A stretch of 64,000 nucleotides of DNA from Actinomycetales bacterium. Lineage in GTDB: Bacteria > Actinomycetota > Actinomycetes > Actinomycetales > Cellulomonadaceae. This document shows, in pieces, positions 12,523 to 52,956 of this stretch; within the stretch, counting starts at the first letter, position 1, and the number at the start of each line of letters is the position of its first letter. The DNA is taken from NCBI GenBank assembly GCA_020444245.1, contig JAHLLI010000010.1, positions 62,001 through 126,000 of the forward strand, in the 5' to 3' direction. Under the pieces are notes generated by a model. The model was not told the origin of the DNA, made no database searches, and worked only from the letters and a program-made list of their open reading frames with translations. A program made the translations under genes and the position numbers.

Positions 12523-12538
12523 TGAAGATGCGGTCAAG
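12523..12538. promoter_or_regulatory. Direct-repeat response-regulator box A
   Basis: TGAAG-N6-TCAAG (11-bp period), 43 bases beyond CsoR operator A and about 90 bases from the YHS start. Same pattern as boxes B-K. Proposed binding site of an OmpR-family regulator. Confidence 0.6.
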
Positions 12539-12559
12539 TCCGCGCCGCCGGCCGGGGCC

Positions 12560-13973
12560 TCACGCCCGCAGCGACGTCATGCGACGGAAGACGAGGACGG
12601 CCGCGACACCGGTGACGGCCAGCCACCCGACGGCGAGCGGCAGCGCCCCCGTGACATCCATCGTCGACGTGAAGGCGCCGTCGACCAGGAGCCGGACGGC
12701 GCCGCGGGCCGGGAGCCAGACGCCCCACCCCGGCGGGGCGGCGTCGAACATGACGTTCTGCGCGATGCCCACGTCCAGGAACGGCAGGACGAACATCGCG
12801 TAGAGGCCTCCGAGCCGTCCGAGCAGTGGCCCCAGAACGACGCCGATCATGGCGTAGGTGAGGGCCACGAGGACGGTGGCAGCGGCGAACGGGAACCATT
12901 GCCGCGGAGTGAAGTCCGCGGCCGTCACGGCCAACGAGACGCCGCTGACGAGGACGGCGGCCGCGACGATCACCGCCAGCCGAGACGAAGAGGCCCGCGA
13001 GGCCGGCCAGGAACGCGACCGTGATGGGGATCATGACGGCGCCGTGGACGTCAGCCATCGACAGCATCGTCGTGGTGGTGACTCCTGCGTCGACGAGATC
13101 CACGGGTGTCGGCTCGTCCGGGGTGATGGCGATCGAAGCGCTGATGAACAGGACCGGGAGGCCGAGCAGCAGCACCCACAGAGCCGGGCTCCGACGGTAC
13201 TCGTGCCAGGCGAACCGCGCGCCGGCCACCAACCGGGCCACGGCGGACACGCTGCGTGCGTGCCCACTCGAGGGTCGAGTGGTCAGCACGAGGGGGACCG
13301 CAGCGAGCGCGAGTCCGGCGCCGGTCCACACCAGGGCCGCCCCTAGGACGCCCAGGCGGCCTCCCTCGTGCGATGTCGGGTCGAGCAGGTACAGGGTTGC
13401 GAAGTGCCCGGGGAAGGCCCTGGTGATGCCTCCGGTCGCCCCGCCCATGGCGGGACCGAAGAACACGTCGAGCATCCAGATGAAAGTGATCACCAGCGAC
13501 CCGTTCATCTCCGACCGCACCACCGACCCCACGGCCGCCCCGATGCCTAGGTAGACCAGCACCGACATGAGGGTCGCTGCGACCACCCGACCGGGCGAGG
13601 ACAGATCGGTGCGCAGCGCCAGGGCAAGCAGGGCGGCCACGGCCGCCAGGAGCGCGAGCACGACGGACGAGCCGAGCCTGGCCCACGCGACCCGCCCCGC
13701 ACCGGCACCAGCCGCGGCGAGCCGGCGATCGATGTTTCGGGAGCCCGCCACATGGAAGAAGCCTGCGACGCCGGCAAGGAAGGACGCGGCCCACGGGGCC
13801 GTCGCAGCTTCCAGCTGCCCGACGCCCGCGGCCCCGCCGAGAATCCGCGCGAAGTCGGCGATCGCGCCCGCCGACGCGAGGACGAACACGACCGGCACGA
13901 TGGCGAGGAGCGCGACGTTGAGGGGCCGGCGTGCGTACTCCTTCAGGAACCGTTTGAGCAGCAGGCCGGTCAT
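12560..13973 (-). pseudogene. ABC-2 type permease, frameshifted near 12980
   Basis: Two frames together make one long membrane protein. The N-terminal part runs from ATG 13973 (MTGLLLKRFLKEYARRPLNVALLAI) with helices and a repeated second half that begins LVAGARFAWHEYRRSPALWVL. At about 12976-12984 the text LAGLFVSA switches frame and continues as LAVIVAAAVLVSGVSLAVTAADF down to 12560. One base too many (or two too few) separates the halves. The protein would be the membrane half of an exporter with the ATPase directly upstream. Either a real mutation or a sequencing error; the adjacent gene has one too. Confidence 0.8.
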
Positions 13974-14646
13974 CGTTCGACCGTCCGCCCCTGACTCAGG
14001 TCGTACACGCGGTCGAACCGCTCGGCGTCGGTGACGAAGTGGCTGACGACGAGCAGGCTCCGGCCCGCGTCGCGACGCTCGCTCGTGAGCGCCCAGAACC
14101 TTGGTAGGTGTCCCAGTCGAACCCGGCGTACGGCTCGTCGAGGAGCAGCACGTCGGGATCCGGGAGCAAGGCCAGTGCCAGGTTCAGCTTGGCCCTCGTC
14201 CCTCCGGAGAGCTCATCCACCCGCACATCGGCCCATTCGCCGAAGCCGAAGGTGGCATAGAGGCTCTCTCGCGCGCGGTCGACGTCGACGGCGGACATCC
14301 GGTAGGCCTTGCCGAACAGCTCCAGGTGCTCATCGCACGTGAGCCGCGCGTAGAGGATCGGCTCCTGGGGGCAGTATCCGAGCCGCCCCCGCAGATCCAC
14401 CTCTCCCGCGTCGTGGCCCACCGCGCCGACGATCACCTTCAAGAGCGTGGACTTGCCGGCACCGTTCTCGCCGACCAGGCCCACCACCTCCCCTGGCCGC
14501 AGCTCCAGGTCGGCCCCCCGAAGGACGGCCCGACCGCGTCCACGCCGCCATCCGCGGCGATACGTCTTGACCACGCCCGCGACGGTGAGGGTCGGGTGGG
14601 GCACCTCAACCGCTCGCGCTGCCAGGTCCTGCTGCCGATCCGTCAT
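13970..14646 (-). pseudogene. ABC transporter ATPase, frameshifted near 14098
   Basis: From ATG 14646: Walker A GLVGENGAGKSTLLKV, Q-loop YCPQEPIL, signature ELSGGTRAKLNLALAL, Walker B VLLLDEPYAGFDWDTY. After DWDTYQG the frame is lost; the shifted frame reads on naturally as FWALTSERRDAGRSLLVVSHFV...YDLSQGR and ends at 13970 in an ATGA overlap with the permease. A single missing base in the CCTTGG region (about 14096-14103) explains it. The unshifted reading ends at 13996 and would lack the H-loop His (SHFV). Energises the neighbouring permease; substrate unknown, but it has a CsoR operator upstream. Confidence 0.82.
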
Positions 14647-14662
14647 CTCAGAACCCTCCTCG

Positions 14663-14679
14663 ATACCCCATAGGGGTAT
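14663..14679. promoter_or_regulatory. CsoR-type operator B (ABC exporter)
   Basis: ATACCCCATAGGGGTAT, a nearly perfect inverted repeat 17 bases upstream of the ATPase start. A possible -10 (TACAGA, - strand) abuts it at about 14679-14684. Confidence 0.75.
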
Positions 14680-14722
14680 CTGTAGCGCGCCCGACGGCCG
14701 AGGGGAAGGGACCGGGGCCAGA

Positions 14723-14738
14723 CTTCGGCAAACCTTCA
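14723..14738. promoter_or_regulatory. Direct-repeat box B
   Basis: On the - strand TGAAG-N6-CGAAG, exactly 43 bases from operator B, the same spacing as at operator A. Upstream of the ABC exporter. Confidence 0.6.
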
Positions 14739-14845
14739 TGCCCGCAGGCACCGCTGCTCACCCGAGGACGCGGCGCCTCGCACGCGGGTCTGCAGGCCAC
14801 GCGCTGACGGGCCTACCGGGCCGGCACGGACCCTCGGGTCACCGA

Positions 14846-14861
14846 CGAAGAATCGGTCAAG
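14846..14861. promoter_or_regulatory. Direct-repeat box C (DUF302 gene)
   Basis: CGAAG-AATCGG-TCAAG, 11-bp period, 90 bases upstream of the DUF302 start. A TATATG at 14898-14903 could be the -10, 36 bases downstream. No CsoR site here. Confidence 0.6.
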
Positions 14862-14950: not shown

Positions 14951-15343
14951 ATGAGCTTCGAGCGCACAGTCGAGGTCCGACTGTCGTTCAAGGACGCGCT
15001 GGCGCGCACCCGTGAGGCGCTCGCCGCGCACGGCTTCGGTGTCCTCACCGAGATCGACATGCAGGCGACACTGCGGGCCAAACGGGGCACACAGATCGCC
15101 CCCTACACCATCCTCGGAGCCTGCAACCCTGCCCTTGCCGAAGGTGCACTCGCCACCGACCCGCGCGTCGGCGTCCCGCTGCCCTGCAGTGTCGTGGTCA
15201 GGTCGAGTGGCGCGGGCACCTCTACGGTGCACGTCTTCGAGCCCGGTCTCCTGCCGGCGCTGGCCGAGAACGTGGATCTCGCCGGCTACGCCGACGAGGC
15301 CGGATCGCTGCTCGAGGGAGTGCTCGCCGAACTGGCGACATGA
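14951..15343 (+). CDS. DUF302 domain protein
   Basis: 130 aa from ATG 14951 behind AAAGGAG. The whole protein is one DUF302 domain: SFKDALARTREALAAHGFGVLTEIDMQATLRAKRG, then YTILGACNPALAEGAL, PLPCSVVV and VHVFEP. DUF302 is a small alpha/beta fold often found in metal and sulfur gene clusters; its biochemical role is not established. The Cys in GACNP and in LPCSV are conserved in the family as I know it. Located between the copper operons and likely co-regulated by box C. Confidence 0.85.
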   Translation: MSFERTVEVRLSFKDALARTREALAAHGFGVLTEIDMQATLRAKRGTQIAPYTILGACNPALAEGALATDPRVGVPLPCSVVVRSSGAGTSTVHVFEPGLLPALAENVDLAGYADEAGSLLEGVLAELAT

Positions 15344-15357
15344 TCGCCTCCGGATGT

Positions 15358-15373
15358 CTTGACCGAATCTTCG
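15358..15373. promoter_or_regulatory. Direct-repeat box D
   Basis: On the - strand CGAAG-ATTCGG-TCAAG, almost identical to box C. It overlaps the TTG that opens the next reading frame, which suggests that this TTG is not the true start. Confidence 0.5.
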
Positions 15374-16923: not shown

Positions 16924-19389
16924 TCATCGGACGGGCACCGGCTGCTCGCGCGAGCTCGCCTGTGGCAGACGTGGCGCGTCCGATGCCGTCTCGCCCGCGA
17001 CCGGCAGCTTCATGCGTCTGAGGAGCAGCGCGTTCACTGCGACGATCAGAGACGACCCGGACATCGTCAGGGCGGCGACCTCAGGGCGCAGGACGAGGCC
17101 GAACGCCGCGGCGAAGGCGCCCGCCGCGACCGGCAGGGCGACGACGTTGTAGCCGACGGCCCAGGCGAGGTTCTGTCGCATCGTCCGGAGCGTGCCTCGA
17201 CCGATCCGCAGCGCGACGGGAACGTCCAGCGGGTCCGAGCGCATCAGCACGACATCCGCAGTCTCCACGGCCACATCGGTTCCGGCGCCGATCGCGATGC
17301 CCACGTCCGCGGTCGCCAGGGCCGGCGCGTCGTTGACGCCGTCGCCCACCATCGCCACCCGCCGACCCGCCGCCTGGAGCTCGGAGACCCGGGCCGCCTT
17401 GTCGCCGGGCAGGACCTCGGCCATCACCTGGTCGATGCCGAGCGAGTCGGCGATCCGCTCTGCCGTGGCCCGGTTGTCCCCGGTGAGCATGACGACGTGC
17501 ACGCCCGCCGCTCGTAGCGACGCGATGGCGTCGGCCGCCCCTTCGCGAACGGCGTCGGCCAGCGTGATCACCCCGACAGCCCGCCCGTCGATCGCGACCG
17601 CCACGCAGGTGTGCCCTGCGGCCGTCAGGCGCCCCAGCGCCTCGCCCAGGCGGCCGAGGACGACCCCTTCGCGGTCGAGGAGGCGGCGGTTGCCGACCAC
17701 GATCTGGTGGCCGTCGACCGTGGCGATCGCCCCGTGGCCGGGGACGTTGCGGAACTCGGTGACGTCAGGGAGCGACACCCCCCGCTGGGCCGCGTAGCGC
17801 CCGATCGCCCGCGCCACGGGATGCTCGGACTCCCGCTCCACGGCGCCGACCATCGCGAGGATGCGCTCCTCGTCGATGCCGTCGACCTCGATCGCCGACA
17901 CCGCGGGCTCACCCTTGGTCAGGGTTCCAGTCTTGTCCATGACCACGGTGTCGATCCGGGCCGCGGCCTCGAGCGCGGCTGCGTTCTTGAACAGGACGCC
18001 CCGCTTGGCTGCCCGCCCGGTCCCCACCATGATCGCCATCGGGGTCGCGAGGCCCAGGGCGTCCGGGCAGGTGATGACCACGACCGTGATGGCGAAGAGC
18101 ATCGCCGTCTGGACCCCTGCACCGGCTCCCAGCCACGCGAGGAACGTCGCGGTCCCCCCGAGAAGCGCCACGAGCACCAGCCAGAAGGCCGCGCGGTCGG
18201 CCAGTCGCTGGCCGGGCGCCTTCGAGTTCTGGGCCTCCTGGACCATCGCGACGATCCGGGCCAGGGCGGTGTCCGCGCCGACCTTGGCGGCCCTCGCACG
18301 CAACGTCCCCGTGGTGTTCATCGAACCGCCGGTGACCGCGTCGCCGACGGACTTCGGGACGGGCATCGACTCGCCGGTCACCATGGACTCGTCGATCTCC
18401 GACTGCCCGTCCTCGACGACCGCGTCGACCGGGACCTTCGCACCGGGGCGGATCAGCAGGAGATCGCCGACGACGACCTGTGCCGTCGGCACCTCGTGCG
18501 GCACGCCGTCGTGGAGCACGACCGCGTGCGACGGCGCCAGCTCGAGAAGCGTGCGCACCGCCTCGTTGGCGCCGCCCCGTGCGCGCATCTCGAACCAGTG
18601 TCCGAGGAGCACGAACGTGGTCAGCACGCTGGCGGCCTCGTAGAAGACCTCGCCCCCGCCGGTGAGGGTCACGGCGAGGCTGTAGGCCCAACCGGCTCCG
18701 ACACCCACCGCGACCAGGACCATCATGTCCAGCGTCCTGGCCCTCAGGGCCCGCCAGGCACCCTCGAAGAACACCCAGGATGCGCCGAACAGCACCGGGA
18801 TAGACAGCAGCAGGGCGAAGACGTCGTCACGGAGGCCGAACGGCGCCGGCACCCCGAAGGACAGCGCCTGCCGCCCGACCGGGGACCACAGCGCGATCGG
18901 CACCGACAGCGCGGCGGCGAGCAGGAAGCGGTTGCGCATGTCACGGACCATCGCCGCCATCGACATCGCACCGTGAGCGTGCCCGGCGGATCCGTGCTCG
19001 GTCCCCGCAGCCACGGGTCCGTGCTGGTGCGGGTCCACGGCGTCGGCACTGGCTCGGCGCGTGCCGTGCGCAGGGTGGTGCTCGTGGTCGTGCGCGGCCG
19101 GGCCGCCCCCGGGGACGCGGATCGAGGGCAGCGGCCCCACCTCGCGCACCGGGTCGCACAGGTGGTCGGGGACGGCACGGCCCGCGCAATGCAGCCCGCA
19201 GGCACGGATCCACCCTGTGAGGTCGTCGGCGGTCACCTTTGCCGGGTCGAAGTCGACCGTAGCGGTCTGGTTGGCCGCGTTGGCTCGGACCGAGATCACG
19301 CCCGGTTGCCTCGCCAGTGTCGCCTCGACCACGCCCGCAGACGTGGCCCACCCCAGGCCTCGCACGTCCATCGTCACCGTCGAGCTCAT
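16924..19389 (-). CDS. P1B-type metal ATPase with CPD membrane motif
   Basis: 821 aa. N-terminal ferredoxin-like fold of the HMA type, but WATS stands where the CxxC ligand pair should be (LGWATSAGVVEATLARQPGV). Then a Cys-x3-Cys/His-rich linker (CGLHCAG, HDHEHHPAHG) as in CopB-type pumps. Membrane motif [13 protein letters not shown] near residue 440 instead of CPC or CPH, DKTGTLTKGEP near 484, SEHPVARAI, GDGVNDAPALATADVG. Final helices VGYNVVALPVAAG and MSGSSLIVAVNALLL resemble the CopB (P1B-3) pattern. Likely exports a soft metal ion; metal identity is open because the membrane ligand is Asp. Same-strand EamA gene follows. Confidence 0.88.
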   Translation of the reverse strand: MSSTVTMDVRGLGWATSAGVVEATLARQPGVISVRANAANQTATVDFDPAKVTADDLTGWIRACGLHCAGRAVPDHLCDPVREVGPLPSIRVPGGGPAAHDHEHHPAHGTRRASADAVDPHQHGPVAAGTEHGSAGHAHGAMSMAAMVRDMRNRFLLAAALSVPIALWSPVGRQALSFGVPAPFGLRDDVFALLLSIPVLFGASWVFFEGAWRALRARTLDMMVLVAVGVGAGWAYSLAVTLTGGGEVFYEAASVLTTFVLLGHWFEMRARGGANEAVRTLLELAPSHAVVLHDGVPHEVPTAQVVVGDLLLIRPGAKVPVDAVVEDGQSEIDESMVTGESMPVPKSVGDAVTGGSMNTTGTLRARAAKVGADTALARIVAMVQEAQNSKAPGQRLADRAAFWLVLVALLGGTATFLAWLGAGAGVQTAMLFAITVVVITCPDALGLATPMAIMVGTGRAAKRGVLFKNAAALEAAARIDTVVMDKTGTLTKGEPAVSAIEVDGIDEERILAMVGAVERESEHPVARAIGRYAAQRGVSLPDVTEFRNVPGHGAIATVDGHQIVVGNRRLLDREGVVLGRLGEALGRLTAAGHTCVAVAIDGRAVGVITLADAVREGAADAIASLRAAGVHVVMLTGDNRATAERIADSLGIDQVMAEVLPGDKAARVSELQAAGRRVAMVGDGVNDAPALATADVGIAIGAGTDVAVETADVVLMRSDPLDVPVALRIGRGTLRTMRQNLAWAVGYNVVALPVAAGAFAAAFGLVLRPEVAALTMSGSSLIVAVNALLLRRMKLPVAGETASDAPRLPQASSREQPVPVR

Positions 19390-19457: not shown

Positions 19458-19474
19458 GTACCCCCTAGGGGTAT
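19458..19474. promoter_or_regulatory. CsoR-type operator E (CPD ATPase 1)
   Basis: GTACCCCCTAGGGGTAT, inverted repeat, 69 bases upstream of the ATPase start (19389). The DUF305 gene on the other strand starts at 19605, so the site may affect both. Confidence 0.7.
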
Positions 19475-19498: not shown

Positions 19499-19514
19499 CT
19501 TCGTCGAACGTTGA
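19499..19514. promoter_or_regulatory. Direct-repeat box E
   Basis: On the - strand TCAAC-GTTCGA-CGAAG, 24 bases from operator E in the divergent region between the ATPase and the DUF305 gene. The spacer GTTCGA is shared with boxes F and I. Confidence 0.55.
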
Positions 19515-23907: not shown

Positions 23908-24573
23908 ATGGTTCGAGACGTGACGCCGGTGACCCGCGTACTCGTCGTTGACGACCACGCGCTGCACCGGGACGGCGCCAGAGGGATCCTTGCCCAGCAC
24001 GCGGACATCGAAGTGGTCGGCGAGGCGGACACCGGCGAGATGGCCGTCGCCCTCGTCGGCCGCCTGGAGCCCGATGTCGTCCTCATGGACGTCCGGCTAC
24101 CAGGGATGAGCGGCATCGAGGCGACCCGGACCATCCGCGACGCTCACCCCGACGTCCGGGTGCTCGTCGTCAGCGCGTACGAGGACGACGAATACGTCCG
24201 GGGCGCCCTTCAGGCAGGCGCCTCCGGCCATCTCAGCAAGGCCGCGCCCGGCCACGAGCTGGTGGACGCGATCAGGTCGGTGGTGGCCGGCCGGAGCGTG
24301 GTCCGCCAGGACGTGCTCGCCCGCCTGCTCGCCACTGACGCAGATGCACCGGACCCGGTCCCGGTGCTCAGCGAACGCGAGAGTGCGGTGCTCGACCTCC
24401 TGGCCCAGGGCCTTGCGAACAAGCGCATCGCCGGCGCGCTTCACATCAGTCCCAGGACCGTGGAGCGGCACTGCGAGAGCATCTACACCAAGCTCGGGGT
24501 GCACTCCCGGACCGAGGCCGTCGTGACGGCCTTCGGGATCGGCCTGCTGCGGGGCCCGGATGCCCCGCACTGA
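23908..24573 (+). CDS. NarL/FixJ-family response regulator
   Basis: 221 aa from ATG 23908; GTG 23920 is equally likely, because a TATGGT (23907-23912) would be a good -10 for a leaderless mRNA there. Receiver: VLVVDDHALHRDG, VVLMDVRLPGMSGIE with the phospho-Asp, VVSAYEDDEYV. LuxR-type helix-turn-helix: LSERESAVLDLLAQGLANKRIAGALHISPRTVERHCESIYTKLGV. Overlaps the kinase gene by 14 bases. Divergent from the cytochrome b operon, which it probably controls. Confidence 0.9.
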   Translation: MVRDVTPVTRVLVVDDHALHRDGARGILAQHADIEVVGEADTGEMAVALVGRLEPDVVLMDVRLPGMSGIEATRTIRDAHPDVRVLVVSAYEDDEYVRGALQAGASGHLSKAAPGHELVDAIRSVVAGRSVVRQDVLARLLATDADAPDPVPVLSERESAVLDLLAQGLANKRIAGALHISPRTVERHCESIYTKLGVHSRTEAVVTAFGIGLLRGPDAPH

Positions 24574-34881: not shown

Positions 34882-35221
34882 GACCCGCACCTCCCTCGAT
34901 CCCGTTTCGATCTACCCGCCGATTCACGAGCCCTGGCAGGTCCACACCATCGCGCTCCGTGCCGACCGACGTCCTCGCACCGTCACTGCCGCCGGCCCTG
35001 GGCCTCCCCGCTGCGAACTCGAAACCCGAAGCCCGGACGGCTTCGCGCACCCGGGCCGGCTCCACCCGCACCGGCGAGGCGATCCGCAGGCGTGAAGCGC
35101 CTCCCACCGCCAGGTCCACCGAGACCCTCCTCACACCCGCCAGTGCGCGGACCCGCTCCATCAGATGCGCCATGCACACGCCGCAGACAAGACCACGAAC
35201 GGCGTACGTCACAGTTCTCAT
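34868..35221 (-). CDS. HMA-domain metallochaperone-like protein
   Basis: 117 aa. Residues 1-70 form an HMA fold with the metal loop [13 protein letters not shown] (CxxC), related to CopZ. The remaining 45 residues are Gly/Arg-rich and end in GHGTC. The stop overlaps the start of the fusion ATPase by 14 bases, so the tail may mainly serve translational coupling. Probably delivers Cu(I) to that ATPase, which lacks its own HMA domain. First gene after CsoR operator F. Confidence 0.8.
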
Positions 35222-35276: not shown

Positions 35277-35293
35277 ATACCCCCCTAGGGTAC
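35277..35293. promoter_or_regulatory. CsoR-type operator F (HMA-ATPase-csoR operon)
   Basis: ATACCCCCCTAGGGTAC, inverted repeat with one weaker arm, 56 bases upstream of the HMA gene start. It would make CsoR 1 autoregulated. Confidence 0.65.
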
Positions 35294-35658
35294 CCACGCG
35301 TCCACAACGGATCAGGAAGCAATCGATGAAGGTTCGATGCATCCGAGGACTGGCGTCCTGGGCAGAGCCATCCCTCGCCGAACACCTCGGCTTGTGGCCC
35401 ATGGCACGCCAGGGCGCCGTCGGGCCAGCGCTCCGCTGCGAGCCGCGACCGGGACCGGCGCGGCCGGGCGGTCGACCTCCGTGATCGGGACGCTGTCGGC
35501 GCTGCGCGCGGATCGCGAAACGGGCCGCCCAGTCGTGCCATCGCTCCGCAGCCGCCGGCGCCCGGGGAGATCCGTGCCCATGCGTCGCTCCAGGTGGCCT
35601 CAGGACGTCATCGACAGTCCCGAGACGCCCCGTGTACGGGCAAAAGCCTCGCTCCCCG
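35294..35658. other. Region without a recognisable gene
   Basis: 365 bases between operator F and the lnt stop. Open frames exist on both strands but show only Arg/Pro-rich text typical of GC-rich shadows. The left end holds the weak box F. Confidence 0.5.
35327..35342. promoter_or_regulatory. Direct-repeat box F (weak)
   Basis: TGAAG-GTTCGA-TGCAT, 33 bases from operator F. Only the first half-site fits well; the shared GTTCGA spacer and position next to a CsoR operator support it. Confidence 0.4.
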
Positions 35659-37299: not shown

Positions 37300-37349
37300 G
37301 CGCGACTCACTCCGGGCTCCCTGGCGCACCGCCCGAACCGGGCGGCGCC

Positions 37350-37598
37350 TCACCGGCCGTCGTGCTCCATGCCGGCGTGCCCGGACCCGGTCCTGCCGGC
37401 CGCCTCGGGTCGCGTGTCGTCGTGGTGGCCCCCCTGGGTGCCGTGGCCGTGGCCGTGGCCCCCGAGGTGCATCACCACCATCAACCCCACGAGGAGGATG
37501 GTCCAGATCGTCTGGCCGGCGACCCCGAACCACCACATGCCCAGGGCCAAGACCGCCAAAGCTAGAACGGCATACTTGGGTGTCATCACCTTGCTCAA
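37350..37598 (-). CDS. Small His-rich membrane protein (DUF2933-like)
   Basis: 82 aa. Two short membrane helices (YAVLALAVLALGMWWFGVAG and TIWTILLVGLMVVMHLGGH) followed by a His/Gly/Met tail (GGHGHGHG, GHHDD, GHAGMEHDGR). The layout is like DUF2933 proteins of metal-resistance loci, but I am not certain. The tail could bind Cu or Ag. Start is ATG 37598, with ATG 37586 as an alternative. 50 bases upstream of lnt. Confidence 0.65.
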   Translation of the reverse strand: MSKVMTPKYAVLALAVLALGMWWFGVAGQTIWTILLVGLMVVMHLGGHGHGHGTQGGHHDDTRPEAAGRTGSGHAGMEHDGR

Positions 37599-37745: not shown

Positions 37746-37927
37746 CGCTTCACCTCCCCTCGCCGGTCTCGCCTGTCTGGGCCCCCCTGTTGAGGGGTCG
37801 CGCCCTCGTGCCCGCGCAGCACCGGCCCGGACCTGGGCGCGGGGAAGATCTGGGCGATCGCCCACACACCGAGGCCGATGAAGATCAGCCCGATGAGCGA
37901 GACCACCACCACGGCCGCGACTGTCAT
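37742..37927 (-). CDS. Small single-helix membrane protein
   Basis: 61 aa. One helix (VAAVVVVSLIGLIFIGLGVWAIAQIF) and a basic tail. Overlaps lgt by ATGA at 37924-37927 and the Cys-pair peptide by ATGA, so the three are translated as a set. Function unknown; the tail ends in GEVKR because the same bases form the ribosome site of the next gene. Confidence 0.65.
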   Translation of the reverse strand: MTVAAVVVVSLIGLIFIGLGVWAIAQIFPAPRSGPVLRGHEGATPQQGGPDRRDRRGEVKR

Positions 37928-38751
37928 CTGAAGACCTCCGTCCTGCTCTCGGGGCGCGGGTCGTCATCGGCCTGCGCGTCGTCGCCCGGCGCCCGGCCTG
38001 CCCGCTCGGCCTCCCGCGGGATGCCGGCGCGAACGACCCACGCCATCAGGCCGGCGCCAACGAGGATGCTGACGATCGACCACAGCTGGGGCTGGGTCAG
38101 TCCGAGCAGGGCCGGCTGGTTGATGCGAACGGTCTCGACCAGGAAGCGTGAGATGCCGCTGAGGACGAGGTAGGCACCGAAGACCACCCCGCCCACGGAC
38201 GTGCGCCGGGCCAGGGCCCACAGGACGCCTGCGATGAGCACCGCGGTGATCGCCTCGTAGAGCGGGGTGGGATGCACGGGGACCGTCGTGGGCACGACGC
38301 CGTGGGGGAAGGCCATGCCCCACGGCAACGTGGTCGGCTTGCCGTAGGTGCCGTCGCCGGACAGGAAGCACCCGAGCCGTCCGATGCCGTAGGCCAGGGT
38401 GAGGGGGATGGCCGCGGCGTCGGCGACGGTGGCCAACGGCAACCGGTGGCGCCGAATGATGACGACCGCGGCGGTGATGCCGCCGATCAGGCCGCCGTAC
38501 CAGGTGAAGCCCATGCCGCCCAAGTGGTGCCAGGTGAGCTCGGGCAGGTGCTCGAGCAGGTAGTAGATCTTGGCCCCGACGAACCCCCAGATGGTCGCCC
38601 AGAACACCAGGCTGTGCGCTCGTTCCTTGGCGAGCCCGGCGCGGTGGAAGGCGCGACCCAGGAGCCACGCCGCCACGAGCGCGGCGAGGGCCTTGCTGGC
38701 GCCGTAGGACTGGATGTCCAGCCCGAGGATCGAGAACAGCACGGGTCGCAC
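37924..38751 (-). CDS. lgt: Prolipoprotein diacylglyceryl transferase
   Basis: 275 aa, seven membrane helices. Lgt core: GLDIQSYGASKALAAL, WATIWGFVGAKIYYLLEH, GFTWYGGLIGG, YGIGRLGCFLSGDGTYGKPTTLPWGMAFPHG, and VPVHPTPLYEAITAV. The HPTPLYE motif and the Arg in GIGRLGCFLSGDG are the usual active-site features. Transfers diacylglycerol to the lipobox Cys of prolipoproteins. The C-terminal 40 residues are acidic/basic and cytoplasmic. Box G lies 73 bases upstream. Confidence 0.93.
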   Translation of the reverse strand: MRPVLFSILGLDIQSYGASKALAALVAAWLLGRAFHRAGLAKERAHSLVFWATIWGFVGAKIYYLLEHLPELTWHHLGGMGFTWYGGLIGGITAAVVIIRRHRLPLATVADAAAIPLTLAYGIGRLGCFLSGDGTYGKPTTLPWGMAFPHGVVPTTVPVHPTPLYEAITAVLIAGVLWALARRTSVGGVVFGAYLVLSGISRFLVETVRINQPALLGLTQPQLWSIVSILVGAGLMAWVVRAGIPREAERAGRAPGDDAQADDDPRPESRTEVFR

Positions 38752-38823: not shown

Positions 38824-38839
38824 TCAACCTTCGGTCAAG
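38824..38839. promoter_or_regulatory. Direct-repeat box G (lgt operon)
   Basis: TCAAC-CTTCGG-TCAAG, 11-bp period, upstream of lgt. No CsoR-type palindrome nearby. A CATAGC on the - strand at 38775-38780 could be the -10. Confidence 0.55.
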
Positions 38840-39660: not shown

Positions 39661-40283
39661 GCCTCGAGCCGCGAGGTGATCTCCTTGAGGAGGTCGGCGG
39701 GGTCGAGCCACATCGAGGGGTACTCGCCGTACCACAGCTGGGTGCCCTTGCCGTCGATGAGGATGAACGAGTGGCCTGGCAGGCCGGCGTGCATGCCCTT
39801 GCCCAAGGTGTCGTAGGCCTTGGAGACCGTGCCGTCGTCCAGCAGCACCGGGGTGGTCACGTCAAACCGGTCGAGATCGGCCTGGATCTGCTCACGGGAG
39901 TTCATCACGATCGGCAGGATCGCGACGTCCAGCGCGTCGAAGGCCGCGCGGTTCTGCTCGATGGCCGCGAGCTGGGCCGTGCAGGCATCGCACCCCGCGC
40001 CCTCGTTGAAGTACAGCAGCACCGGGCGTCCGCGGAAGTCGGACAGCGACACGGTCGTGCCCGCGGTCGTCGGGAGGGTGAAGTCGGGAGCCGCGCGCCG
40101 GTCGTCGCTGTTGGTGGGGCGCGAGGTGACGAGCGCGGCGGTCGTGAACGCGGCGACCAAGAGCAGGACCCCGACCCACAGCGAGATCGTGCCGAGCCGG
40201 CGGTTGCGGGCGGCCTTGGCGCGCAGCGGTGCCAGGATCGCCTGCCGCTGCGCCTCGCGGCGACGCGGACTGGTCGAGCTCAT
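39657..40283 (-). CDS. Membrane-anchored redoxin with CDAC site
   Basis: 208 aa. Basic N-terminus, one helix (LGTISLWVGVLLLVAAFTTAALV), then an AhpC/TSA-type thioredoxin fold outside the membrane: APDFTLPTTAGTTVSLSDFRGRPVLLYFNEGAGCDACTAQL with a CxxC site. LPGHSFILIDGKG follows. Presumably receives electrons from the CcdA-like protein encoded upstream and reduces or oxidises extracytoplasmic thiols. Overlaps neighbours at both ends. Confidence 0.88.
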   Translation of the reverse strand: MSSTSPRRREAQRQAILAPLRAKAARNRRLGTISLWVGVLLLVAAFTTAALVTSRPTNSDDRRAAPDFTLPTTAGTTVSLSDFRGRPVLLYFNEGAGCDACTAQLAAIEQNRAAFDALDVAILPIVMNSREQIQADLDRFDVTTPVLLDDGTVSKAYDTLGKGMHAGLPGHSFILIDGKGTQLWYGEYPSMWLDPADLLKEITSRLEA

Positions 40284-41218
40284 CGAGTGTGCTCCTCACG
40301 GTCGGTGGTGGTGTGGCAGGCCGGGGCCTCGTGGGCCTCGGCGTCCTCAGGCGGTGCCGAGGCGGGGCGCCGGCGCAAGGTGGCGACCACGAAGATCGCC
40401 GCGGCCGCGAGCAGGCCGAGCCCGAGGACGGGTTCTGGCACCGGAGCGAGCCAGTCGGCCAGCGCTCCGAAGGCACCGGTCAGCGCCTCAGCGATCGCGG
40501 CCTGGGCCCCGGTGCCACCGGTCATCTCACCTGCGGCGGCCAGCCAGGCCACCAGCCCGGCCATGATCGCGAACACGATCGCGACGGCGAGGTTGACGGT
40601 GTTGGTGACCAGCGTCCGCCCGGCCACGGTCAGGCGCAGTGGCTTGGCGCGCATCCAGCGGCGCTCGGAAAGCCTGGCCTTGTCCCACACCAGGGCCATG
40701 ATGAACAGCGGGAACGTCATCCCGAACACGTACGCCAGGCCCAGTGCGACGCCGCCGACCGCCGAGCCGGACAGCGCGGACAGGGTCATCACGCCGACGA
40801 GCACCGGTGCGCAGCAGCTCGAGGCGATGCCCGAGAAGACCCCGAGGGCGAAGAAGCTCGCCGTGTCGCCGCGGCTGGTATCCGGTGAGGCGAGGAAGGA
40901 GGGCAGCGACCACATCCGCCCCGACAGGCTCAGCACCGCCAGGGCCAGCATCAGCACCGCGCCGCCGTAGTACAGCACCGAGTGGTAGGACGCGATTGCC
41001 GCCGAGAGAAGGCTGGCCCCGATGGTGATCGGGACCAGCACGAGCGCCAGACCGGCGGCGAACACGAAGGTCAACGGAAGCAGCCGCCAGCGGCGGTTCT
41101 TCGCAGCGACCGCGAGATAGCTCGGTGCGAGGAACACGATGCAGCAAGGCGCGAACAGCGCGACCCCGCCGGCGAAGAAGGCCGCCAGGACGCTGCCCGT
41201 GGTCAGCAGGGTGCCCAT
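40280..41218 (-). CDS. CcdA/DsbD-like electron transporter
   Basis: 312 aa from ATG 41218. Helices with Cys in the expected places: LFAPCCIVFLAPSYLAVAA (first reactive Cys region with Pro) and GIASSCCAPVLVGVMTLSALSGSAVGG (second region). Passes electrons from cytoplasmic thioredoxin or glutaredoxin to outside thiol proteins. Both sites hold Cys-Cys pairs rather than a single Cys. The His/Asp/Glu tail ends HEAPACHTTTDREEH. Its likely partners are the redoxin downstream and the CHFC protein upstream. Confidence 0.85.
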   Translation of the reverse strand: MGTLLTTGSVLAAFFAGGVALFAPCCIVFLAPSYLAVAAKNRRWRLLPLTFVFAAGLALVLVPITIGASLLSAAIASYHSVLYYGGAVLMLALAVLSLSGRMWSLPSFLASPDTSRGDTASFFALGVFSGIASSCCAPVLVGVMTLSALSGSAVGGVALGLAYVFGMTFPLFIMALVWDKARLSERRWMRAKPLRLTVAGRTLVTNTVNLAVAIVFAIMAGLVAWLAAAGEMTGGTGAQAAIAEALTGAFGALADWLAPVPEPVLGLGLLAAAAIFVVATLRRRPASAPPEDAEAHEAPACHTTTDREEHTR

Positions 41219-41520
41219 CAGCCCTCCAGGACGGGAGAACCGGTCGCGCCGAGGCGCTCGAGGTGCCGGGTCAGCTTCTTGACCGGCAGACGACCGGCGC
41301 TGAAGAACTCCCCGTCCACCAGGACGAGCGGGTTCATCGCGGGGCGGTGCCGCGCGACGAGCGAGGCGCCTTCCTTCGACTCGATCGGCACGGCGCGGAT
41401 CTCGATCGGGAACCGAGGTGCGAGGCGTGCCAGGTCCTGCTGCGCCTGGTCGCAGAAATGACACGCCTCACTCGTCACGACGGTCACCTGAACCGTGGGG
41501 CCGGCCTGGGCTGCGTCCAT
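41218..41520 (-). CDS. Glutaredoxin-like protein (CHFC)
   Basis: 100 aa from ATG 41520. Thioredoxin-like fold with VTVVTSEACHFCDQAQQDLARLA (CxxC) and NPLVLVDGEFFSAGRLPVKKLTRHL. Cytoplasmic, no signal. Probably the electron donor or a thiol partner of the CcdA-like protein coupled to it. First gene of the - strand redox operon; box H lies 84 bases upstream. Confidence 0.85.
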   Translation of the reverse strand: MDAAQAGPTVQVTVVTSEACHFCDQAQQDLARLAPRFPIEIRAVPIESKEGASLVARHRPAMNPLVLVDGEFFSAGRLPVKKLTRHLERLGATGSPVLEG

Positions 41521-41603: not shown

Positions 41604-41619
41604 CGAAGAGTCCGTCAAG
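41604..41619. promoter_or_regulatory. Direct-repeat box H (divergent redox operons)
   Basis: CGAAG-AGTCCG-TCAAG in the 151-base divergent region between the glutaredoxin-like gene (-) and the TlpA-like gene (+). Could act on either or both. Confidence 0.55.
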
Positions 41620-41671: not shown

Positions 41672-42301
41672 GTGAGTCCCGCCTCGTCCATCCTGAGACC
41701 GGCCGCGCGCGGCAGGCGTCGCTCGTATGCGCTGATCGCGGCCGTGGCCGTGCTGCTCGCGGGATGCAGCAGCACGGGCGTCGCGGGCTACACCGACGCG
41801 GGTGAGCAGGCCGGCTACGTCTCCGGCGACGGCTCCGTGACCACCTGGGACCCCGCCCGGCGCCCGGGCCCGATCACGCTCCAGGGCACGGCGTTCTCCG
41901 GCGAGACGATCGACGTCGCCGCCTGGCGCGGCGACGTGGTCCTGATCAACACCTGGTACGCCGAGTGCCCGCCGTGCCGCGCCGAGGCACCCGACCTGAC
42001 CGCCATCGTCAACGAGTACGCGCCCAGCGGCCTGCACGCAGTAGGCGTCAACGGCGTGAACGACGCCGGGACCGTCACGGCGTTCGAGCGACGTTTCTCG
42101 ACCCCCTACACGTCCATCCAGGACGCCGACGCCACTGCGGTCGCCGCGCTCCAAGGCGTCGTCCCGCTCCAGGCAGTGCCTACCACGGTGCTGCTCGACC
42201 GTCAGGGGCGTGTCGCGGCCCGCGTGATCGGACAGATCGACGCATCGACGCTGCGGACGCTCATCGACGAGCTCCTCGGCGCAACCGACCAGAGGGAGTG
42301 A
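41672..42301 (+). CDS. TlpA/ResA-like thioredoxin lipoprotein
   Basis: 209 aa from GTG 41672. Lipoprotein signal ALIAAVAVLLAGCSSTG. Thioredoxin domain with DVVLINTWYAECPPCRAEAPDLTAIV (CPPC) and the cis-Pro stretch LQAVPTTVLLDRQGRVAARVIGQID. ResA-type proteins keep apocytochrome c haem sites reduced for System II attachment. First gene of the + strand cytochrome c biogenesis operon. Confidence 0.9.
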   Translation: MSPASSILRPAARGRRRSYALIAAVAVLLAGCSSTGVAGYTDAGEQAGYVSGDGSVTTWDPARRPGPITLQGTAFSGETIDVAAWRGDVVLINTWYAECPPCRAEAPDLTAIVNEYAPSGLHAVGVNGVNDAGTVTAFERRFSTPYTSIQDADATAVAALQGVVPLQAVPTTVLLDRQGRVAARVIGQIDASTLRTLIDELLGATDQRE

Positions 42302-46299: not shown

Positions 46300-46590
46300 T
46301 CAGCTGCGAACCAGGCGCGCGATCGCATCGGCAGCCTCGCGGAGCTTGACCTCCTGCTCGTCACCGCCCGTGCGGGCGGCAGCGACCAGGCATGTGGCCA
46401 TGTGGCGGTCGAGCAGCTCGAGTGCAAACGACTGCAGAGCCCGTGAGGTCGCGGCGACCTGCGTCAGGGTGTCGATGCAGTAGGACCCGTCCTCCACCAT
46501 CCTGGCCAGGCCGCGGACCTGCCCCTCGATGCGGGCCAGCCTCCGCAGCAGGTCAGGCGTGTGCCCCGACGCCGGCGCCTCGGTGGTCAT
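46300..46590 (-). CDS. csoR: CsoR-family copper repressor 2
   Basis: 96 aa. RRLARIEGQVRGLARMVEDGSYCIDTLTQV with Cys38, His63 and Cys67 (SYC; DRHMATC), the complete Cu(I) ligand set. Differs from CsoR 1 mostly outside the motif; the C-termini are identical (EAADAIARLVRS). ATGA overlap with copZ. Likely represses its own operon through operator I. Confidence 0.92.
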   Translation of the reverse strand: MTTEAPASGHTPDLLRRLARIEGQVRGLARMVEDGSYCIDTLTQVAATSRALQSFALELLDRHMATCLVAAARTGGDEQEVKLREAADAIARLVRS

Positions 46591-46820
46591 GCCGCAGCCC
46601 CGACGACGGCGTAGCCCTCGTCGGCCACGGCCGCACGAACCAGGTGCCGGTCCACCGGCGAGCTCGAACTGACCGTGACCTGGGACACCCCTTCAGGCAC
46701 CAGGAGCACCTCGACGTTCGTCACCGTCTCGATGGCCAGGAGGGCCGACGTGACAGCGCGCACGCAGTGCGCGCAGGTCATTCCTGCGACGGTATAGGTG
46801 GTCGTCACGATGACACCCAT
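46587..46820 (-). CDS. copZ: CopZ-like copper chaperone
   Basis: 77 aa HMA domain with TYTVAGMTCAHCVRAVTSALLAI (CxxC) and the end EGYAVVG. Cytoplasmic Cu(I) carrier for the CopA pump. First gene of the copZ-csoR operon, with operator I 31 bases upstream. Confidence 0.9.
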   Translation of the reverse strand: MGVIVTTTYTVAGMTCAHCVRAVTSALLAIETVTNVEVLLVPEGVSQVTVSSSSPVDRHLVRAAVADEGYAVVGAAA

Positions 46821-46850: not shown

Positions 46851-46867
46851 ATACCCCCCACCGGTAT
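46851..46867. promoter_or_regulatory. CsoR-type operator I (copZ-csoR)
   Basis: ATACCCCCCACCGGTAT; outer arms match the other operators, one inner arm is degenerate. Confidence 0.6.
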
Positions 46868-46890: not shown

Positions 46891-46906
46891 CTTCATCGAA
46901 CCTTGG
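46891..46906. promoter_or_regulatory. Direct-repeat box I
   Basis: On the - strand CCAAG-GTTCGA-TGAAG, 23 bases beyond operator I and overlapping the stop of the small membrane protein gene (46893). Confidence 0.5.
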
Positions 46907-47204: not shown

Positions 47205-48341
47205 TCAGTGCCCGGGGAGTGTCCCCGCCCGCGGCAGGGTGACCTCGAAGGTCGCCCCGTGCCCGCGCCCGGCACTCCGGGCGCGGATGCGCCCCCCGTG
47301 CGCTTGGATCAGTGCACGGGCGATCGCAAGCCCGATCCCACTACCTCCGGCAGCGCGGGACCGGCCGCCGTCGACACGGAAGAAGCGCTCGAAGACCCGT
47401 GGAAGGTCTTCGGCGTCGATGCCATCTCCGGTGTCGCGAACGATGATCGAGAAGCCGCCAGGACTCGGTTGAGCGCTCAGAAGCACGCTGCCACCGGCCG
47501 GCGTGTGCCGCAGAGCGTTGTCGAGCAAGTTCGCAAGGACTTCCTGGATACGGTCGGGGTCGACGAGAATCGAAGGGTCGACCGCATCGGTCTCGACCGC
47601 ATCGGTCTCGACCGCGAGGCGGACGCCACACGCCTGGTACTCGGGTGCCGCGGCGCGGGCTCCGGCCCTGACCACGTCACCGACAGCGACCCGGCGCACG
47701 TCGAGGTCGAGGGCTCGCTCCTCCGCGCGGGAGACGCGCCCGACATCATCGACCAGGCGCTCGATCCGGGAGATCTCGGCGGCGACACGCTGGAAGTTGG
47801 CTGGGGTCGCGGGCAAGATCCCGTCAGCGACCGCCTCGTGGTAGCCACGCACGGTGCTCAACGGTGTGCGCAGCTCGTGGGCGAGGTCACGTAGTACCCG
47901 CGCGCGGGTCCGCTCGGTGCGGGCGATGTTCGTCGCCATCTGCGTGAAGGCCTCGGCGAGCGAGTCGAACTCGGCACCGTAGCCCGCCGCGTCGATGCGA
48001 ACCGCGTAGTCGCCCGCGGCAACCGCCGCGGCTGCATCGGACAGCTGGCGCAGCGGGCGGGCCGCACGTCGGGACACGAACCAGCCCACAGCCAGTGCAG
48101 TCACGGTTGCGATGGTGACCGCCACACCCAGCGAGATCATGATCGCCCGGGAGAAGGCGATGTCGAGGTGGGTGGCAAGCTCGGCGGTGACGGGACCGAC
48201 TGCCCGTTCGACGTGGTCGCGAAACATTCCTGGCGCCAGGCCGAGCGCGACGACGAGCAACGTGGTCCCGCCGGCGACGATGACCAGAACGTGCGAGAGC
48301 AACAGCCGCGCGCCGAACCCGCCTCGCTGGCCCACAGCCAT
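47205..48341 (-). CDS. CutS-like sensor histidine kinase (second copy)
   Basis: 378 aa from ATG 48341, which overlaps the regulator stop. Helix 12-35, short outside loop with APGMFRDHVERAVG, helix 65-88, HAMP, H-box VLRDLAHELRTPLSTVRGY, N-box NLLDNALRHTPAGG, DTGDGIDAEDLPRVFERFFRVDGG and GGSGIGLAIA. The sensor loop is parallel to that of the kinase at 7984 (GPGLFHEHM), so both probably sense a similar envelope signal such as copper or thiol state. A 15-bp tandem duplication at 47582 repeats VETDA. Confidence 0.9.
   Translation of the reverse strand: MAVGQRGGFGARLLLSHVLVIVAGGTTLLVVALGLAPGMFRDHVERAVGPVTAELATHLDIAFSRAIMISLGVAVTIATVTALAVGWFVSRRAARPLRQLSDAAAAVAAGDYAVRIDAAGYGAEFDSLAEAFTQMATNIARTERTRARVLRDLAHELRTPLSTVRGYHEAVADGILPATPANFQRVAAEISRIERLVDDVGRVSRAEERALDLDVRRVAVGDVVRAGARAAAPEYQACGVRLAVETDAVETDAVDPSILVDPDRIQEVLANLLDNALRHTPAGGSVLLSAQPSPGGFSIIVRDTGDGIDAEDLPRVFERFFRVDGGRSRAAGGSGIGLAIARALIQAHGGRIRARSAGRGHGATFEVTLPRAGTLPGH
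47582..47611. repeat. In-frame 15-bp tandem repeat in the kinase gene
   Basis: CCGCATCGGTCTCGA occurs twice in a row. In the protein this gives VETDAVETDAVD between the dimerisation and ATP-binding parts. It keeps the frame and looks like recent slippage. Confidence 0.85.
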
Positions 48342-49084
48342 CACCGCCCGTCGCCCATTCGGTAGCCCACGCCCCTGACCGTGCGGACGTATCGGGGCTC
48401 GGCGGGGTCGTCGCCGAGCTTGCGTCGTAGGTTGCCGATGTGCACCTCGGTGACGTGGTCGTCGCCGAACCAGTCGTCGCCCCACACGGCTTCGAGCAGC
48501 CCGCGCCGAGACAGCACGGCCCGAGGCCGGCTGGACAAGGCGTCCAGGATGTCGAACTCGGTCCGGGTCAGATCGACCCGGACACCCGAGACCTCGACCT
48601 CGCGGGCGGCGACGTCGATCACCAGGTCCCCGAACACCCTCGCGTGCTCTCCGGCACTGGGACTGCGGGGGCGGCGCAGCACCGCTCGAACACGCGCGGT
48701 GAGCTCTCGTGGGGAGAACGGCTTGGAGAGGTAGTCGTCCGCGCCGACCGACAGCCCGATCAAGCGGTCCACCTCTTCCGCACGCGCCGTCACCATGATC
48801 ACGTAGACGTCGGAGAAGGTCCTCACCCGACGACACACCTCGACCCCGTCGATTCCTGGGAGCATGAGGTCCAGAAGGATCACATCCGGCTCCCACGACC
48901 GCGCGAGGTCGACTCCCGCCTCGCCGTCCGCCGCGACCTTCACCGCGAACCCTTCGGCTTCCACGTAGTCGGCGATCAGGCGCGCGATCGCCGCGTCATC
49001 CTCGATGGCGAGCACTCGGCGACGCCGCCCGGCACCTGCCTGGGCACCACCGGGACGCGTGGGTCCCGCTCCGGGGCTGGTCAT
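48341..49084 (-). CDS. OmpR/PhoB-family response regulator (second copy)
   Basis: 247 aa from ATG 49084. Receiver: VLAIEDDAAIARL, VILLDLMLPGIDGVEV with the phospho-Asp, VIMVTARAE, SKPFSPREL. Winged helix: RTEFDILDALSSRPRAVLSR, HVTEVHIGNLRRKLGDD, TVRGVGYRM. Very close to the regulator at 9081 in the receiver, and similar in the recognition helix. Its operon has box J upstream, so it is my first candidate for the protein that binds the 11-bp direct repeats. Confidence 0.92.
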   Translation of the reverse strand: MTSPGAGPTRPGGAQAGAGRRRRVLAIEDDAAIARLIADYVEAEGFAVKVAADGEAGVDLARSWEPDVILLDLMLPGIDGVEVCRRVRTFSDVYVIMVTARAEEVDRLIGLSVGADDYLSKPFSPRELTARVRAVLRRPRSPSAGEHARVFGDLVIDVAAREVEVSGVRVDLTRTEFDILDALSSRPRAVLSRRGLLEAVWGDDWFGDDHVTEVHIGNLRRKLGDDPAEPRYVRTVRGVGYRMGDGR

Positions 49085-50102: not shown

Positions 50103-50118
50103 TCAAGGTTTCGTCAAG
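50103..50118. promoter_or_regulatory. Direct-repeat box J (two-component operon)
   Basis: TCAAG-GTTTCG-TCAAG, a perfect 5-base direct repeat with 11-bp period, upstream of the SHOCT-regulator-kinase operon. Suggests autoregulation by the response regulator. Confidence 0.65.
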
Positions 50119-50304
50119 CCGATGCGTCCGTCCTCGCCGGCCGACGGCCCTCTCCATCCCGGCCCCGAACTCCACAGCTGGACGCTGCACTGTGGCCAGC
50201 CGCTGAGGGCGTGCGCACTCTTCATCGATTCTTCGCCGTTTCCGGGGGCTGGCACACAGCCGCGGCCCGCACGATGGAATCGAGACGCCGAGAGGAGGGC
50301 ACGA

Positions 50305-52110: not shown

Positions 52111-52178
52111 CCCGACACCGACACCCCGTCCCGACACGTGTCGCCGGACGGCAGGACTGCTGACGAAAGGAACGACCC

Positions 52179-52898
52179 ATGGCAGACAAGCAGACCGTGC
52201 TCGGTCGAATCTCCCAGCTCGCGAAGGCGAACATCAACTCGCTGCTGGACCGCGCGGAGGACCCCGGCACGATGATCGACCAGCTCATCCGCGACTACCG
52301 GAACAACATCGCCGAGGCCCAGGACGCCGTTGCCCAGACGATCGGCAACCTCCGACTGGCGCAGCAGGATCATGCTGCTGACGTCGCGGCGGCGGCGGAC
52401 TGGGGGCGCAAGGCGCTCGCCGCGTCGAGCCGCGCGGACGAGCTGCGGGCCGCTGGAGAGACGGCAGACACCGACAGGTTCGACAGCCTCGCCAAGGCCG
52501 CGATCAGCAGGCAGATCACCGCCGAGCGGGACGCCGCCACGGCCGAGCCGGTGATCGCCGCGCAGGCCGAGGTCGTCGACAAGCTCAAGTCCGGGCTGAC
52601 CGCGATGAAGGAGACGCTTGCCGACCTCCAGACCCGCCGAGACTCGCTGGTAGCCCGGCAGAAGAGCACCGAAGCCCAGTCCAAGGTCCAAGGTGCGTTC
52701 TCGGCGATCGACGTCCTCGACCCGACGAGCGAGATCGCCCGCTTCGAGGACAAGGTGCGGCGCGACGAGGCCCACGCCGCCGGCCAGGCCGAAGTCGCAG
52801 CCTCGTCGATCGAGGCGCAGTTCGAAGAGCTCGAGACGTCCGGCGGGGCCCTGGAGGTCGAGGCCCGGCTCGCCGCGCTCAAGCACCGGGACGCCTGA
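52179..52898 (+). CDS. pspA: PspA/IM30 family membrane-stress protein
   Basis: 239 aa. Helical PspA fold throughout: VLGRISQLAKANINSLLDRAEDPGTMIDQLIRDYRNNIAEAQDAVAQTIGN is the classic helix 1-2 region. PspA binds stressed membranes from inside, forming large assemblies. It follows the coiled-coil protein by 68 bases. In this context it may answer membrane damage by copper. Confidence 0.92.
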   Translation: MADKQTVLGRISQLAKANINSLLDRAEDPGTMIDQLIRDYRNNIAEAQDAVAQTIGNLRLAQQDHAADVAAAADWGRKALAASSRADELRAAGETADTDRFDSLAKAAISRQITAERDAATAEPVIAAQAEVVDKLKSGLTAMKETLADLQTRRDSLVARQKSTEAQSKVQGAFSAIDVLDPTSEIARFEDKVRRDEAHAAGQAEVAASSIEAQFEELETSGGALEVEARLAALKHRDA

Positions 52899-52929
52899 CA
52901 GGGTTCGACGTCCTGAGGCTTCGCCGGGC

Positions 52930-52956
52930 TGAAGGCTCGATCAAGGAACCGTCAAG
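52930..52956. promoter_or_regulatory. Triple direct-repeat box K (amino acid importer)
   Basis: TGAAG-GCTCGA-TCAAG and then GAACCG-TCAAG: three half-sites at exact 11-bp steps. A TTTCAT at 52995-53000 could be the -10, 38 bases downstream; no good -35 is present, which suits activation. Confidence 0.65.

Follow-up and report, generated by a model that had tools for sequence, protein, structure and literature searches.

The DNA analysed here is a 64-kb stretch (bases 62001-126000 of contig 24, referred to below as the window) from the genome of an Actinomycetales bacterium of the family Cellulomonadaceae, which comprises 4.41 Mb in 44 contigs. The window carries a copper island with P1B-type ATPases, a copZ-csoR pair, thiol and lipoprotein genes, an amino-acid importer, and two pairs of OmpR-type response regulator and sensor kinase, RR1/HK1 and RR2/HK2 (Table 1). 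Upstream of these genes lie short direct repeats with half-sites 11 bp apart, which we call boxes. Our analysis indicates that the boxes are very probably sites of a CopR-type response regulator, as predicted from sequence, and that they would define an expanded copper regulon, larger than the single-site model of Corynebacterium glutamicum.

Boxes with a period of 11 bp

An earlier, sequence-only reading of this DNA listed eleven such repeats, boxes A to K, and the sequences of all eleven are present at their positions. Counting pairs of YSAAG half-sites at periods 6 to 26 across the window yielded 11 pairs at period 11 versus 0 to 4 at each other period. The 11 pairs are boxes A, B, C, D, H, I, J and K together with pairs at 50220(-), 52941(+) and 52670(+), the last a low-scoring pair within the pspA gene; boxes E, F and G miss the pair rule.

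We then scored the window with a weight matrix of 19 positions, built from 69 training sites in the DNA of relatives and none from this genome. The training sites were picked by the half-site rule from loci of RR1-like regulators in other organisms (30 of 39 loci; the nine excluded were L064-L069 and L071-L073) and from six plasmid regions. At a cut-off of at least 16 bits, out of a maximum of 36.4, the relatives-only matrix recovered all eleven boxes and two more, at 50220(-) and 52941(+), denoted J2 and K2. These 13 sites, which are diverged (16.6 to 24.8 bits), compare with one site in the reversed window, one in a 400-kb sample of this genome from contigs 8 and 15 and none in the reverse of that sample; in 60 first-order Markov resamples of the window, 54 had no site, five had one and one had two (mean 0.12). 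Equally many matches in shuffled or control sequence would have spoken against the boxes, and this was not the outcome. The gene list, made with knowledge of the boxes, covers 86% of the window, and none of the 13 sites falls within a listed gene. The spacer and flanks, left free during training, showed a strong bias; over 98 sites, this genome's included, the base composition yields A TGAAG (A/G)TTCGA TGAAG A as the consensus. Judged by their sequence, the eleven repeats look like real control sites.

A search of the whole genome, which the sequence-only reading had called for, agreed with this picture: the relaxed pattern YSAAGN6TSAAG has 34 matches versus 9 in the reversed control. Contig 12 has 4 of the 34, and 15 fall within the 48.7-115.0 kb segment of contig 24. 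At least ten further sites of 20 bits or more lie at copper-type genes just upstream of the window or on contig 12, where they adjoin a second DUF302 gene and SoxE-type, VKOR, DUF3105 and multicopper oxidase genes. The predicted regulon thus extends upstream of the window and onto contig 12, beyond the boxes first listed. The excess is also seen in relatives, whose loci L035-L063 hold 72 period-11 pairs versus 11 in reversed sequence, with other periods near control. With the relaxed pattern, and with counts summed by hand, 18 genomes of the same genus gave 118 matches versus 17 in the reversed control, and six genomes of the same family but other genera gave 38 versus 17.

Relation to the CopR site of C. 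glutamicum

The proven CopR site of C. glutamicum, TGAAGATTTgaTGAAGATTT, was reported on the basis of electrophoretic mobility shift assays and mutation (PMC3140484). This sequence, which the sequence-only reading had given correctly when it pointed to the likeness, takes the best base at 18 of the 19 positions of our matrix, built without it. Its score is 32.1 of 36.4 bits in the 10 genomes with the exact site, since a T stands before it and the maximum needs an A. The window boxes are period-11 direct repeats matching TGAAGATTTnnTGAAGATTT. Among 401 genomes of one family the exact site occurs in 10, all of one genus, probably Corynebacterium, and once in each; every time the gene just downstream of it encodes a regulator with 50 to 54% identity to RR1, RR2 and RR3.

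We also searched for a strict box, TSAAGRTTYGATSAAG, in 246 actinobacterial genomes, this genome included, and found 35 matches in 23 genomes versus a single match in the reversed control. An RR1-like gene (at least 54% identity to RR1) is present in 32 of the 245 other genomes, and strict box and RR1-like gene occur together in 16 (Fisher p 2e-11, 245 genomes). The distance from box to regulator gene is at most 500 bp in nine of these 16 and 0.8 to 3.2 kb in five; in the remaining two the box is on another contig. Three other genomes (loci L096, L101 and L098) have two strict boxes close to the regulator gene, in facing orientation with 16 to 20 bp between them.

In a tree of 47 regulator sequences, RR1 to RR4 (RR3 and RR4 being encoded on contig 12), their relatives and four of the ten exact-site regulators form one clade (100/100). 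Four regulators of the Arthrobacter group fall outside the clade, and their loci have no site of 18 bits or more.

Conservation of the boxes in relatives

In 9 of 11 loci, our own included, a box of at least 16 bits stands 88 to 124 bp in front of lgt; one more locus has it in the same place at 14.9 bits, and in L153 the lgt boxes are only found about 500 bp away. At the glutaredoxin-ccdA genes, 17 of 19 loci (own included) have a box 366 to 416 bp before ccdA. The leaders of the ccdA and lgt orthologues have otherwise diverged, the box being what is best conserved in them, and at both genes the box is reversed relative to the gene. For the orf of the RR2 operon, 4 of 6 loci (own included) show a box in the 700 bp upstream. 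No match was found in the 74 upstream stretches when these were reversed. We considered the importer as a core member of the regulon and DUF302 as a conserved target, and rejected both, boxes being found at the importer in only 4 of 20 loci in all (our own and three other genomes) and at DUF302 homologues in only 2 of 18.

It is extremely improbable that the boxes are leftover copies of duplicated promoters, or of a mobile repeat, rather than working sites. Some box-bearing promoters outside the window do belong to duplicated genes (VKOR, SoxE and DUF3105, on contigs 24 and 12), but within the window the flanks differ by eye, and at ccdA and lgt the box is kept across species without its flanks. 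The duplicated set itself, comprising SoxE-type, SHOCT, VKOR and DUF3105 genes with their boxes, is present on both contigs (L032:6652-9864 and L034:8760-11651) the proteins being 74 to 96% identical; L031 has a third copy of SoxE.

The boxes might alternatively serve a general envelope-stress regulator of the MtrA, CutR or PhoP type, with the copper genes as a by-product. The neighbourhood, which includes lgt, lnt, peptidoglycan hydrolases, PspA and thioredoxins, would suit such a regulator, and the best model for both RR1 and RR2 is MtrA, although below its cut-off (226.7 and 232.1 of 300 bits). We nevertheless regard this as very unlikely: the contig 24 island and contig 12 together account for 19 of the 34 relaxed matches in the genome, the matrix fits the proven CopR site, and within 1.5 kb of the lgt gene on contig 10 no box reaches 12 bits. 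Among the three types, the comparison of binding sites covered CutR (of CutRS), which was rejected, since its published site, TAWATAAA (PMC12802291), is absent from the boxes. The evidence thus favours a copper-responsive regulator of the CopR type, and the copper and thiol gene set that the boxes were first thought to link is supported. The sites stand at copper-defence genes and also at the regulators' own operons, with RR1 behind box A and RR2 behind box J.

CsoR-type operators beside the boxes

A layer missed by the sequence-only reading consists of CsoR-type operators. Using the consensus TAC-x9-GTA with G-tracts (reported in PMC3902906), we found such operators between box and gene at boxes A, B, E and F; a fifth, at box I, is an asymmetric variant that was read by eye and missed by the pattern searches. 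Of 29 CsoR-type operators across 39 sources, 14 have a box no more than 120 bp away and 15 have none at that distance. The CsoR-family protein encoded in the window has Cys38, His63 and Cys67, which we take to match the residues of Mycobacterium tuberculosis CsoR. The presence of box-adjacent operators and of a CsoR-family gene in the window suggests joint control of these promoters by copper sensors outside (CopRS) and inside (CsoR) the cell. A helical phasing of box and operator was considered and rejected; the gaps in the window (44, 44, 25, 34 and, by eye, about 23) resembled turns of 11, but the 14 pairs spread from 25 to 82.

We also looked at the distance from the boxes to a possible -10 element, which had been put at 36-38 bases. 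Over 123 sites from this genome and relatives, TANNNT is most frequent exactly 38 bases after the box, with nine occurrences; no other offset has more than four. None of the nine is from this genome; they come from two groups of related organisms. In the eight promoters of this genome that were examined no -10 at a fixed distance was found; the sole downstream TANNNT is a TATGAT, 28 bases away, in front of the two DUF3105 genes that lie outside the window. The proposed spacing therefore receives weak support from other organisms and none from these eight promoters. At boxes A and B the candidate -10 abuts or overlaps the CsoR-type operator.

Candidate regulators

RR1 and RR3 are 75% identical, RR2 is 56 to 59% identical to both, and RR4 is 52% identical to RR1 and has a 26-bit box nearby. 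RR3 lies beside boxes and a second copper-type cluster; upstream of it is a CsoR-type operator, with no box within 120 bp. By regulator sequence the closest named relatives are Actinotalea and Cellulomonas, with RR1 86% identical in Actinotalea lenta. The loci of RR1's nearest relatives hold boxes of at least 18 bits (two in L035, two in L036 and one in L076). In the tree RR2 pairs with RR4 (97/90) and, weakly, with a regulator from Streptomyces, at whose locus there is no box.

An OmpR-type regulator and a sensor kinase are adjacent in RR1/HK1, RR2/HK2 and RR3/HK3. HK1 and HK3 have HxHM in a short outward loop, and HK2 keeps this in part only, without the first His and the Met. Of the 41 kinases of relatives 20 were readable, and among these 7 have HxHM, 7 more have HxH and 6 have neither. 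The loop of CopS in C. glutamicum is reported to include H39, H41, M42 and M44 (PMC3140484).

The proposal that an OmpR-family regulator binds such repeats is supported by the co-occurrence, linkage and common clade described above. The further proposal, that this regulator is RR2, fits in part, as RR2 lies behind box J, but RR1 is somewhat better supported. RR1 and RR3 appear to be somewhat better candidates than RR2 because of the HxHM loops of their kinases, the boxes in the loci of RR1's relatives and the lack of a box at RR2's Streptomyces relative. That RR2 alone regulates the window boxes, with RR1 and RR3 controlling other genes, seems unlikely to us. Besides its position behind box J, RR2 has a recognition-helix end, HIGNLRRKL, identical to that of the exact-site CopR proteins, and its nearest relative in the tree is RR4 with its 26-bit box; on the other hand, RR1 is itself behind box A and overlaps copA1, RR1-like loci of other genera hold boxes, and both the weak Streptomyces grouping and the incomplete loop of HK2 speak against it. 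Shared binding among the CopR-clade paralogues seems likely.

Discussion

Several observations weigh against the boxes being CopR-type sites, or against parts of that proposal. As the training half-sites were picked by rule, only the six-base spacer and the flanks of the matrix are independent. The strict box was not found in this genome; it is missing from 16 of the 32 RR1-positive genomes, and 7 of the 23 genomes with a strict box have no RR1-like regulator at 54% identity or more. In 14 genomes of other families of the same order the relaxed pattern gave 134 matches versus 74 in the control (summed by hand), which argues against its general use. Boxes E, F and G are imperfect (16.6 to 18.4 bits), the second half-site of F being TGCAT, and box D has no clear target gene. 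Several boxes are reversed relative to the gene, which is unusual for a simple activator. The low conservation at the importer and DUF302 genes belongs here too, and orthologous footprints share ancestry.

From the sites, their excess and position, their conservation at two genes, the CopR-clade link and the operators, we infer a mechanism that covers binding, phosphorylation, the copper signal, activation, the part of CsoR and the acting paralogue. A sensor kinase with a short outward His/Met loop (HK1, HK3 and perhaps HK2) would detect excess copper outside the membrane and phosphorylate its regulator (RR1, RR3 and perhaps RR2). Two copies of the regulator would then bind head-to-tail to the half-sites 11 bp apart, a few tens of bases upstream of the -10 element. 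The bound regulator would switch on pumps, copper chaperones, multicopper oxidase, cupredoxin-like proteins and thiol-repair proteins, and also the extra lipoprotein diacylglyceryl transferase and the possible cystine importer. CsoR would occupy the operator between box and gene at four operons, and at a fifth that has the variant operator; with its own gene behind box I, it may repress these operons until copper rises inside the cell too.

The best comparison is the CopRS system of C. glutamicum. It is alike in the period-11 site, in an OmpR-type regulator that would belong to the same clade (50 to 54% identity in the exact-site genomes), in a short kinase loop with His and Met, and in the reported multicopper oxidase and P-type ATPase targets (PMC3140484). 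In contrast, one site is reported there, between copR and cg3286 (PMC3140484), whereas here we find 13 in the window and at least ten more outside. This genome also encodes four regulators of the clade, its boxes occur in both orientations, and they stand at a broader range of genes; a single site per genome, which is a trait of C. glutamicum and not a definition, does not describe this genome. CsoR of Streptomyces lividans (PMC3902906) is alike in its reported type-2 operators with G-tracts and in a Cys-His-Cys CsoR-family gene beside copZ. Here, however, the operators adjoin CopR boxes and the promoters are apparently shared, unlike the separate operons in the C. glutamicum model as reported (PMC3140484). 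The CusRS, CopRS and CinRS systems of proteobacteria (TIGR01387) likewise sense envelope copper through a kinase and an OmpR-type regulator (PMC3140484 and general knowledge), but RR1 and RR2 score 142.9 and 163.7 bits against a cut-off of 279.2 and are not members.

The expanded CopR-type regulon, apparently with two sensors, extends the known single-site kind. We found no description of a multi-operon CopR regulon of such type in searches of one open-access library, from which most subscription journals are absent. With the present comparison, one site known from experiment becomes a consensus that can be applied across actinobacteria. The comparison also suggests a copper role for genes of unknown function, namely DUF302, DUF3105 and small membrane proteins. 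It would also link copper with the making of lipoproteins, as the island lgt has a conserved CopR box and the contig 10 lgt does not, and promoters under both CopR and CsoR would form a natural gate with two sensors.

Lgt modifies a cysteine that, in E. coli, copper is reported to block (PMC6593411, a commentary). We tentatively raise the possibility that in Cellulomonadaceae and relatives CopR has grown from a one-site switch into an envelope-thiol protection regulon, in which the same promoters respond to copper outside the membrane through CopRS and to copper inside through CsoR. A copper-inducible extra Lgt (perhaps with Lnt) might then keep lipoproteins lipidated when copper blocks the lipobox cysteine, while cystine import and thiol repair might restore reduced cysteine.

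Features of the island

Table 1. Boxes, operators and genes discussed in the text, in window coordinates.
Feature	Position	Strand	Product or context	Score or basis
HK1	7984..9090	-	Sensor kinase, HxHM in outward loop	Pfam; sequence
RR1	9081..9860	-	OmpR-type response regulator, CopR clade, overlaps copA1	Pfam; tree
copA1	9847..12150	-	Copper-type P1B ATPase	Pfam; NCBIfam
YHS-domain protein	12216..12434	-		Pfam
CsoR-type operator	12463..12479		Between box A and gene	TAC-x9-GTA with G-tracts
Box A	12523..12538	+	Upstream of YHS-copA1-RR1-HK1 (genes on -)	24.5 bits
CsoR-type operator	14663..14679		Between box B and gene	TAC-x9-GTA with G-tracts
Box B	14723..14738	-	Upstream of ABC ATPase and possible permease (genes on -)	21.9 bits; ABC_tran Pfam match, permease matches below cut-off
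Box C	14846..14861	+	Upstream of DUF302 gene	24.8 bits
DUF302 protein	14951..15343	+		Pfam
Box D	15358..15373	-	Between DUF302 and an ORF without Pfam match	23.8 bits
copA2	16924..19389	-	P1B ATPase with CPD motif	Pfam; NCBIfam
CsoR-type operator	19458..19474		Between box E and gene	TAC-x9-GTA with G-tracts
Box E	19499..19514	-	Upstream of copA2 (start 19389, -)	18.4 bits; imperfect first half-site
copA4	32089..34890	-	P-type ATPase with cupredoxin and YHS domains	Pfam
HMA-domain protein before copA4	34868..35221	-		Pfam just under cut-off, 23.8 of 24.8 bits
CsoR-type operator	35277..35293		Between box F and gene	TAC-x9-GTA with G-tracts
Box F	35327..35342	+	Upstream of HMA-copA4 (genes on -)	16.6 bits; degenerate second half-site
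lgt, copper-island copy	37924..38751	-		Pfam
Box G	38824..38839	+	About 72 bp upstream of lgt (-)	18.4 bits
ccdA-type protein	40280..41221	-	Membrane thiol transporter	Pfam (longer frame)
Glutaredoxin-like protein	41218..41511	-		Pfam just under cut-off, 25.5 of 26 bits
Box H	41604..41619	+	Between glutaredoxin-ccdA-TlpA-VanY (-) and TlpA/ResA-type gene (+)	22.6 bits
TlpA/ResA-type protein	41675..42301	+	Thioredoxin-like protein	Pfam
CsoR/RicR-type repressor	46300..46590	-	C38, H63, C67	Pfam; NCBIfam RicR 112 of 175 bits
CopZ-type chaperone	46587..46820	-		Pfam HMA; NCBIfam below cut-off
CsoR-type operator, asymmetric variant	46851..46867		Between box I and gene	Read by eye
Box I	46891..46906	-	Upstream of copZ-csoR (-)	24.1 bits
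HK2	47205..48896	-	Open frame; true start probably near end of RR2	Pfam
RR2	48341..49084	-	OmpR-type response regulator, candidate of the sequence-only reading	Pfam; tree
Box J	50103..50118	+	Upstream of small membrane protein-orf-RR2-HK2 (genes on -)	18.7 bits
Box J2	50220..50235	-	Upstream of small ORFs from about 50305 (+); absent from first list	22.9 bits
Box K	52930..52945	+	Upstream of amino-acid (possibly cystine) importer	22.1 bits
Box K2	52941..52956	+	Third half-site, in register with K; absent from first list	20.6 bits
Solute-binding protein	53182..54015	+	Nearest model cystine	NCBIfam 194.8 bits, cut-off 312

The P1B-type ATPases at 16924-19389(-) and 28139-30556(-) are 67% identical, have CPD in place of CPC, and carry HMA domains without CxxC. 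Eight such CPD copies, two of them those of the window, occur in 7 of the 49 sources scanned, which marks a conserved subtype.

The island also contains two lgt-family genes, one of them long and diverged, and an lnt gene (20298-21704(-), 35659-37536(-) and 37924-38751(-)); the third lgt of the genome is the one on contig 10. A copper plasmid region of Cellulomonas likewise has copies of lgt and lnt.

In the middle of the island lies a NarL-type two-component pair (23908-25945(+)) with no matrix site nearby. Past the last box, a TraG/TraD-type coupling protein and an NlpC/P60-transglycosylase (57765-59219(-) and neighbours) hint at a bordering conjugative element.

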